From the NCBI RefSeq assembly GCF_022026155.1, contig NZ_CP085041.1, positions 1,334,306-1,398,305 on the forward strand: a stretch of 64,000 nt of DNA. Reading direction: 5' to 3'. Below the pieces are notes generated by a model. It made no database searches. It had not been told where the DNA came from and worked only from the letters and a program-made list of their open reading frames with translations. This DNA is from Dissulfurimicrobium hydrothermale (GTDB lineage: Bacteria; Desulfobacterota; Dissulfuribacteria; Dissulfuribacterales; Sh68). Numbering within the stretch: the stretch's first letter is position 1; every line of letters begins with the position of its first letter. Below are positions 35,225 to 42,889 of this stretch, one piece after another. Position numbers and translations under genes: made by a program.

Positions 35225-35300
35225 GGGGATGTAGCTCAGTTGGGAGAGCGCCACGTTCGCAACGTGGAAGTCAGGGGTTCGAATCCCCTCATCTCCACCA
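35225..35300 (+). tRNA. tRNA-Ala (anticodon CGC)
   Basis: Full cloverleaf: acceptor GGGGATG/CATCTCC, D-stem GCTC/GAGC, anticodon stem CCACG/CGTGG around loop TTCGCAA (anticodon CGC), T-stem AGGGG/CCCCT with TTCGAAT, then A-CCA. The acceptor has the G3-U70 wobble pair that defines alanine identity. CCA is encoded. Confidence 0.97.
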
Positions 35301-36566: not shown

Positions 36567-38138
36567 GTGAATTATTATCAAATTCGTTTATTTTTATCTC
36601 TTCTCCTGATCTTTTTCTGCACAGGGACTGCCCTTGCAAATGACGGTGTCAGCCCGAAGATCGACCCCTTCCTGCAGAATGAGCTGAACAACAGGACCGC
36701 ATCAGAGTCCATTGAGGTCATACTGGTACTGGACAGGGACCCTTTGGCCCAGATGCCCGAAGACCTTGTAAGGGAAATGAAAGATCGGATAGAAGGGCTC
36801 GGGGGCAGCGTCAGTAACTATGCATTCAATAATATCAAGGCAACAGTACCTGTTGACAAGATCTCAGAGATCGCAAAATGGCCTGAGATAAAGGTCATAA
36901 AACTGCCCACAAGGCCCCATGTAAGCAGCATGTCAGAGGGGGTGGGCGTGATAGGGGCCGATCGCTGGCAAAACAGCGGCCTTCTGGGACAAGGGGTCAA
37001 GGTGGGGATTATTGATGCGGGCTTCAAAGGCTGGGAAAGCGCCGGTCTTACCCGGTATTATCCATTAAAGGTATTTGGCGGGGATGAGAACTCCGACACT
37101 CATGGCGCCGAATGCGCGGCCTTGGTCCATGATGTCGCACCTGGCGCCATGCTGTACCTGGCCAACATAGGAAACGTAGACACAGACCTGTATAACGCCT
37201 ATAGCTGGCTGAAATCCCAGGGCGTGGAGGTGATAAGCTTTTCCATGGGAATTGATTGGTGGTGGCTGCTTTCCGGACAGATAGATCAACAGACCGTGGA
37301 TCAATTACATTCTATCGTTGAGCAGGCGCATAACGATGGTATTACATGGGTTAATGCTGCTGGCAACGAGGCCCAACAGGTATGGCTGGGGCAGGCAAAT
37401 CTTGATCAATACAACTATGTAAACTTTACAAGCGGCTGGGAAGTAAACCCGTTTATCTTATCTAAACATAGTGATTCAAGCCCATCCAGCGGCCAGGCCC
37501 TTGTGCGGCTTATATGGTTTAATCCCAGCGCCAACTATGACCTGAATATCTACAGATGGAATGGACAAAATTGGGATATAGTGGCGCATTCCGTTTCTGT
37601 CGGCACAGGATTAAAACTGTGTCAGTTCCAGGGGAACAGATATGATATATATGCCGCAGCGATAAAAGGCGGTTGGGGAAGCTCAAGCCAGGATTGGGTA
37701 GGTCTGATCCTGGATTCACTGGATGACCTGCAGCCATCGTTTGATCCATCGTTTGGTGGTGTTTACACCCGCACCTATTCGATCGATTATCCTGCAGACG
37801 ACCCGGCCGTCTTGACCGTGGGCGCAGTCCCTTATAACAATCCGTATCAAACAGAGGAATTCAGCTCATGCGGACCCACACTTTCTGGTGGGGCCAAGCC
37901 GGATATAGTCGCACCGGATTGTGTCACCACCTGGTTCGGCGGAAATTTTTGCGGGACATCCGCCGCAGCCCCTTATGCCGCGGGTGCTGTTGCGCTCCTG
38001 AAGCAGGCCCATCCTGAATGGGGGCCCGATCAGATCAAGTCCATGCTCAAGGCAACGGCCTATGACATAGCCCCTGCCGGTTGGGATTATTGTTCAGGGG
38101 CCGGGCTTATGCAGCTCGGAGGGCTGCTGGGGCGTTGA
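36567..38138 (+). CDS. Secreted S8-family serine protease (subtilase)
   Basis: 523 residues starting at a GTG with AGAGG 9 nt upstream. A signal peptide (LFLSLLLIFFCTGTALA) and a propeptide-like region of about 100 residues precede the catalytic domain: Asp in VGIIDAGF, His in DTHGAECA, oxyanion Asn in VNAAGNE and Ser in CGTSAAAPYAAG. An insertion of about 130 residues with WNPS-like beta strands lies between the Asn and Ser blocks, as in some extracellular subtilases. Substrate and regulation are unknown. Confidence 0.92.
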   Translation: MNYYQIRLFLSLLLIFFCTGTALANDGVSPKIDPFLQNELNNRTASESIEVILVLDRDPLAQMPEDLVREMKDRIEGLGGSVSNYAFNNIKATVPVDKISEIAKWPEIKVIKLPTRPHVSSMSEGVGVIGADRWQNSGLLGQGVKVGIIDAGFKGWESAGLTRYYPLKVFGGDENSDTHGAECAALVHDVAPGAMLYLANIGNVDTDLYNAYSWLKSQGVEVISFSMGIDWWWLLSGQIDQQTVDQLHSIVEQAHNDGITWVNAAGNEAQQVWLGQANLDQYNYVNFTSGWEVNPFILSKHSDSSPSSGQALVRLIWFNPSANYDLNIYRWNGQNWDIVAHSVSVGTGLKLCQFQGNRYDIYAAAIKGGWGSSSQDWVGLILDSLDDLQPSFDPSFGGVYTRTYSIDYPADDPAVLTVGAVPYNNPYQTEEFSSCGPTLSGGAKPDIVAPDCVTTWFGGNFCGTSAAAPYAAGAVALLKQAHPEWGPDQIKSMLKATAYDIAPAGWDYCSGAGLMQLGGLLGR

Positions 38139-38166: not shown

Positions 38167-38195
38167 TTGACATTGGAGCACCTGATCCATATACT
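38167..38195 (+). promoter_or_regulatory. Strong sigma-70-like promoter for the putative selenoprotein gene
   Basis: TTGACA (38167-38172), 17-bp spacer, TATACT (38190-38195). The -35 box is consensus and the -10 box differs at one position. It lies in the 86-bp gap after the subtilase gene, 30 nt before the ATG at 38225, so the gene has its own transcription start. Confidence 0.7.
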
Positions 38196-38224
38196 TGTTT
38201 AAAAAATAAGGAGGTCCGACCGGC

Positions 38225-38794
38225 ATGTCTACGACGTTGAAGTGGGAAACCACGATGGAAGAGGCGCTGAAGCTTGCAAAGATGCACGATAGGCCGATTC
38301 TGTTGGATTTTTTTAATCCAGGCTGAATTGGCTGTCAACAGATGGATGCGGTTACGTATCCTGATGCAAAGGTCAGTGGATTTTTAATGGAAAATATGAT
38401 TCCGTTGAGGATTCTTTTTGATACAGTACCTTTGTCTATGGACTTTAATATCAAATGGACTCCCACCTTAATAACCCTTGATGCCGCCGGGAAAGAACAC
38501 CACAGGATAGTCGGATTTGTCGGACCGGATGAATTCATTCCATCGATGCTCCTCGGGATAGGCAAGACATATCTAGAGACGGACAGATTTGACAAGGCAA
38601 TAGCAAGTTTTGAAAAGGTGATAACCGAACATCCCAATTCACCTTCAGTGCCTGAGGCTGTTTATATGGCAGGGGTTGCCCGTTTTAAGGGTACTCATAA
38701 TCCGAGGCCGTTGAAGGAGGCTTACGAGATGTTGAACGTCCGTTTTCCTGGAAGCGAATGGACGAAACGGGCTTATCCATACAGATTGCTTTAA
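38225..38794 (+). CDS. Putative selenoprotein: thioredoxin-fold/TPR protein with UxxC motif (in-frame TGA)
   Basis: Read through one TGA (38324-38326) the frame gives 189 residues. The start ATG has AAGGAGG 10 nt upstream and a good promoter. Residues 25-41 read ILLDFFNPG-U-IGCQQMD, so the TGA is residue 34, where the first cysteine of a thioredoxin CxxC should be, and Cys37 is the second. Downstream the same frame keeps WTPTLITLDAAGKEHHR (cis-Pro strand of the fold), then a TPR-like helical region and the end WTKRAYPYRLL. Cys homologues of this architecture are known in Desulfobacterota as far as I recall. A SECIS-like hairpin follows the TGA. Without selenocysteine insertion the gene would be a pseudogene; its strong start signals and intact downstream frame argue against that. 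It is probably a cytoplasmic thiol/selenol oxidoreductase, since no signal peptide is seen. Confidence 0.85.
38344..38361 (+). promoter_or_regulatory. Candidate bacterial SECIS hairpin
   Basis: GGATGCG (38344-38350), loop GTTA (38351-38354) and CGTATCC (38355-38361) form a 7-bp stem with one G-U pair. The loop starts with G and lies 24 nt after the TGA. Both agree with published bacterial SECIS rules (G among the first two loop bases, loop about 16-37 nt from the UGA). It would bind SelB. Confidence 0.65.
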
Positions 38795-40675: not shown

Positions 40676-40749
40676 GGGCCTATAGCTCAGTTTGGTAGAG
40701 CCACCGGCTCATAACCGGTTGGTCCCAGGTTCGAATCCTGGTGGGCCCA
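40676..40749 (+). tRNA. tRNA-Met (anticodon CAT)
   Basis: Cloverleaf: acceptor GGGCCTA/TGGGCCC, D-stem GCTC/GAGC, anticodon stem ACCGG/CCGGT around CTCATAA (CAT), T-stem CCAGG/CCTGG with TTCGAAT, discriminator A. CCA is not encoded. It is an elongator type rather than initiator, because the first pair G1-C72 is formed and the anticodon stem lacks three G-C pairs in initiator order. tRNA-Ile2, with lysidine at C34, cannot be fully excluded. Confidence 0.93.
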
Positions 40750-42480: not shown

Positions 42481-42845
42481 CGATGGAGATGAACGGCGAT
42501 CGCTGGCGTGATACGTCAGAGGAAAGTCCGGGCTCCAAAGGGCAGGGTGGTTCGTAACACGAACCGGGGGTGACCCCAGGGAAAGCGCCACAGAAAATAT
42601 ACCGCCATGCCGTTTGGCGTGGTAAGGGTGAAAAGGCGAGGTAAGAGCTCACCGCTGAAGCGGCGACGCTTCAGGCATGGCAAGCCCCACCCGGAGCAAG
42701 ACCAAATAGGGAGGCGTTCGAGGGTGGCCCGTCCGATGCCTCCGGGTAGGTTGCTTGAGGCGTCGGGCGACCGGCGTCCCAGATGAATGATCGTCGCCCC
42801 GTACTTAATGGGGTTACAGAACCCGGCTTATGAACATCTCCATCG
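42481..42845 (+). ncRNA. rnpB: RNase P RNA, bacterial class A
   Basis: Catalytic RNA that matures tRNA 5' ends. Conserved blocks: GAGGAAAGTCCGGGCTCC near 42519, the CACAGAAA of P3/P4 surroundings near 42590, GGTAAGAGCTCACCG near 42640, AGACCAAATAGGG near 42700, and ACAGAACCCGGCTTA near 42816 that pairs to form P4. The ends form P1: CGATGGAGATG (42481-42491) pairs perfectly with CATCTCCATCG (42835-42845). There is no separate terminator before panB. Confidence 0.97.
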
Positions 42846-42889
42846 ATGTTTTTTCAAGTTTGTCTTCAAGCCTGTCAAAGGAGCGCCAA

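Follow-up and report, generated by a model that had tools for sequence, protein, structure and literature searches.

This locus raises a simple question: is the TGA at codon 34 of a long reading frame a stop, or is it read as selenocysteine (Sec)? In the window—the whole stretch of 64,000 nucleotides analysed, from a host genome of one contig of 2,025,450 bases—the frame opens on the forward strand with an ATG at 38225 and ends with a TAA at 38792-38794, giving 189 residues. Its lone in-frame TGA lies within N-P-G-U-I-G-C and is followed by 155 sense codons, which bears out the original prediction that it falls where a CxxC motif would have its first Cys, to give U-x-x-C. The truncated call foreseen for standard annotation is also real: with table 11, only an ORF of 150 aa at 38342-38794 is seen and the redox half is lost. 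A promoter and a Shine-Dalgarno sequence had been claimed ahead of the gene, and both are found there as predicted elements (Table 1); GGAG-type sites precede most homologues too. Judged from its sequence, the product is almost certainly a selenoprotein of thioredoxin fold that has a U34-x-x-C37 active site, ends in a TPR tail and is probably located in the cytosol.

Table 1. Features of the thioredoxin-TPR locus, in window coordinates.
Feature	Position	Strand	Evidence
Sigma-70-like promoter TTGACA-17-TATACT, predicted	38167..38195	+	11/12 consensus positions
Shine-Dalgarno GGAGG, 10 nt upstream of the ATG	38210..38214	+	sequence
Thioredoxin-TPR selenoprotein gene, 189 residues and TAA stop	38225..38794	+	sequence; full-length homologues
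Thioredoxin-fold domain, residues 1-108	38225..38548	+	Pfam Thioredoxin_2; profile matches in PDB
TGA codon 34, predicted to be read as selenocysteine	38324..38326	+	TGA shared by 80 homologous loci; two close homologues have TGC
Cys37 codon, second (resolving) residue of U-x-x-C	38333..38335	+	Cys in every TGA homologue read
SECIS-like hairpin GGAUGCG-GUUA-CGUAUCC	38344..38361	+	fold of window, covariation, synonymous shuffles
W-T-P-T, residues 78-81, predicted cis-Pro loop	38456..38467	+	invariant, 13 aligned homologues
C-terminal TPR domain, residues 109-183	38549..38773	+	Pfam TPR_6; profile matches

The first 108 residues pass Pfam Thioredoxin_2 (PF13098; 38.4 bits for a gathering cut-off of 27) and also match Thioredoxin_7; in the PDB, the first half of the family profile finds 2kuc, a putative disulphide isomerase, and the gamma domain of DsbD. 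W-T-P-T we take to be the cis-Pro loop expected in a thioredoxin fold. Residues 109-139 match TPR_6 (31.2 bits, cut-off 26.3), and the second half of the profile matched CpoB and BamD; this C-terminal domain was absent from the earlier description of the protein. AlphaFold2 run on the single sequence gave a mean pLDDT of 55. Since no signal peptide is seen in the N-terminal sequence, the protein is likely to be cytosolic.

Homologues were sought in the order (46 genomes, which also make up the whole class) and in a phylum sample of 395 genomes. The order has 13 full-length members including that of the window, all of them with a single TGA, at codon 34, and the other 12 share 52-72% identity with the window protein. 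Across Desulfobacterota the TGA form occurs in 74 of the 395 genomes, and the same selenoprotein is found in many related sulfur bacteria. Read at the codon level, 80 homologous loci have TGA at column 34 together with Cys at column 37, and their matched stretch contains no second TGA. Because so many loci share the codon and no other TGA, a chance origin of the frame is excluded. The original prediction had named homologues with Cys or Sec at residue 34 as support, and what they carry is Sec, rarely Cys.

The Cys forms are two homologues (L089 and L090) in which codon 34 is TGC and residue 37 is Cys. Both are nested among the Sec rows of the tree, L090 on a long branch that leaves its placement unsure, and because of this nesting the two probably derive from Sec forms. 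Nine other rows (L091-L099), all from family f66, make up a clade of their own on a long branch. Most are CxxS; two have Cys at neither position, with V or E in the place of Sec, and most f66 members end with a Gly/Ser-rich tail. The function of the clade is probably altered. Elsewhere, a short thioredoxin paralogue with the motif Y-x-E/D-G-C-P/G-H-C usually has Cys (L101-L103), and TGA replaces its first Cys in L104 and L105, thus in at least two genomes (G368 and G385); as far as the sequences tell, this is an independent Cys/Sec exchange.

The host genome is equipped for such a reading. The original prediction had named selA, selB, selC and selD as the genes to look for, and all four are present: SelA, SelB, SelD—whose own gene carries an in-frame TGA—and a tRNA-Sec with a UCA anticodon, G73 and an encoded CCA. 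Among the other genomes, G323 has the TGC form and neither a SelA nor a tRNA-Sec match at 1e-8, and G394, from that genus too, combines the TGA form with SelA and tRNA-Sec; this is a natural experiment in one genus, where the gene has Sec if the machinery is present and Cys where it has gone. The other genome with a TGC form, G060, retains SelA and tRNA-Sec, so TGA can change to TGC without the machinery being lost. Five TGA carriers are without a complete SelA match (G008, G050, G086, G121 and G193); all five assemblies are fragmented, and each contains a tRNA-Sec match. That of G121 reaches just 58 bits and belongs to a shorter type (L160), perhaps a selC*-type tRNA with a UCA anticodon. Of the order's 46 genomes, 41 have SelA above the cut-off and only 13 have the thioredoxin-TPR gene. 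The gene is thus optional among Sec users rather than diagnostic of them.

A SECIS-like hairpin starts 20 nt from the U of the UGA. The five pairs of its consensus stem form in 66-78 of the 78 sequences compared, and they covary, with substitutions in both arms (A-U to G-C, U-A to A-U, G-C to A-U). Of 79 Sec loci, 72 have a stem of at least 6 bp whose loop has a G in its first two bases; permuting synonymous codons within each gene yields 11 such loci on average and never more than 18. The stem is a 4-bp ACGC/GCGU in six loci, the hairpin is shifted upstream by a few bases in four, and the Thr at U+10 is encoded by ACG in 57 of 60 cases. The folding excess is confined to the hairpin segment (mean z -1.15; other segments of the gene, -0.36 to +0.12); kinship between the sequences inflates the p-values but does not touch this comparison of segments within genes. 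Taken alone, the gene of the window shows a modest excess, 7% of its synonymous shuffles folding equally well. By the same stem measure the two TGC homologues form 5 and 4 bp, with no significant folding excess.

Should the TGA be a true stop, through a pseudogene or a sequencing error, the product, if any, would be the 150 aa protein from 38342. The table 11 ORF does offer such a protein; it would however be deprived of the redox motif, and the TGA is shared by the 80 homologous loci, in independent assemblies, with sequence conserved on both sides. The conserved TGA, the covarying hairpin, the nested TGC forms and the link with the machinery leave little room for this reading, which we regard as very improbable. 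A general reassignment of UGA to an amino acid, for which nothing speaks beyond the open frame itself, is the least credible of all: the adjoining upstream gene (36567-38138) stops at TGA, and so do many homologues of the thioredoxin-TPR gene.

A slightly lower probability than that of the true stop goes to a decoding of UGA 34 as Cys, by a tRNASec-like selC* tRNA-Cys with its own SelB*. Such a tRNA with a UCA anticodon has been reported in Desulfobacterales, according to a review, and the host genome possesses a second SelB adjoining a tRNA-Sec-like tRNA. This tRNA, however, has the anticodon GCA and U73 and so reads Cys codons, while the sole UCA tRNA found has G73 and the form of a tRNA-Sec; moreover, residues coded as Cys elsewhere do not require a UGA. 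The decoding of codon 34 as Sec, as first claimed, is thus supported by the machinery, the homologues, the hairpin and the TGC form in a genome free of SelA and tRNA-Sec.

The second SelB-like gene lies outside the window, directly behind its tRNA (G000:C1:1461214-1463225; L004, L042 and L053), whose T-stem also has a bulged A. We considered a recoding of Cys codons to Sec by this pair and rejected it, as the review of selC*/selB* describes a tRNA-Cys system which fits; by its sequence the pair fits that system. Just upstream are genes for an HGD-D protein (2-hydroxyglutaryl-CoA dehydratase D-type) and a BadF-type ATPase, which might be the target of the selC*/selB* system.

Coming back to Sec at codon 34, we infer with high confidence, from the parts found, a decoding by SelB, SECIS and tRNA-Sec. 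SerRS would load Ser onto the tRNA-Sec(UCA), SelA would turn it into Sec using the selenophosphate made by SelD, and SelB with the hairpin would bring the Sec-tRNA to UGA 34. If the protein works as thioredoxin and the DsbD gamma domain do, the selenolate of Sec34 would then attack a substrate disulfide and Cys37 would resolve the mixed selenenyl-sulfide; a thioredoxin-reductase-type system would presumably re-reduce the protein, and the TPR tail, given its profile match, probably binds a partner protein. The product is most likely a cytosolic selenol/thiol-disulfide oxidoreductase. Clustering of gene neighbours found no conserved partner gene; downstream nitroreductase and coaBC-like genes are common only to the window and to G032, of the same family.

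The original prediction also called the selenoprotein new, and there novelty is partial, since it joins the large and well-known group of UxxC selenoproteins with a thioredoxin fold. Many entries of this sort stand in the 2026 catalogue of 119 prokaryotic selenoprotein families (PMC13188914), and none of their descriptions mentions a TPR. The closest in kind is the "thiol:disulfide interchange protein" WP_011366075.1 (PMC13188914, PMC9312934), a PF13098 UxxC protein like that of the window and a type reported in three deltaproteobacteria (PMC1794560); the catalogue mentions no TPR tail for it and the comparison is by domain, motif and description only, so that the two may be one family. The Sec-containing thioredoxin (PF00085, UxxC) likewise shares fold and motif, but the window protein matches PF00085 weakly (15.6 bits, cut-off 23.5) and has the TPR tail. 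DsbD gamma and TsoB (NF045694) are the best PDB and NCBIfam sequence matches of the thioredoxin half; these, unlike the window protein, are membrane or fusion proteins, and the match to NF045694 covers the last ~113 of 572 positions with 43.6 bits, below the curated cut-off of 805. The VPGUxxT thioredoxin-like (seleno)proteins (NF041382, NF041383) have a thioredoxin-like domain with Sec similarly placed after P-G; however, they are UxxT and not UxxC, with longer models, for which the window protein scores 18.4 and 18.7 bits against cut-offs of 350 and 275. Within NCBIfam 20.0 it reaches no model's cut-off.

Searches elsewhere added little: among the matches listed for the contig search with the window protein there was only a distant Neomarinimicrobiota fragment, the plasmid search gave one 30% thioredoxin, in Emticicia, and text searches of the literature, whether for the motif or for thioredoxin selenoproteins fused to a TPR, gave nothing relevant. 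Whether the cytosolic thioredoxin-TPR protein is an uncatalogued selenoprotein family, with Sec as its usual state and Cys as a rare derived one, seems to us evenly balanced. If it is, such a Sec-dominated pattern would tend to escape searches that require Cys homologues. Automatic annotation probably truncates the protein in many anaerobic sulfur-cycling bacteria. The Sec-dominated distribution recommends the family for studying why a thioredoxin active site keeps Sec and what the TPR tail recruits.

Around the gene, the window also holds a class A RNase P RNA (42484-42846, 327 bits) and tRNA genes at 35225-35297 and 40676-40749, all ordinary.
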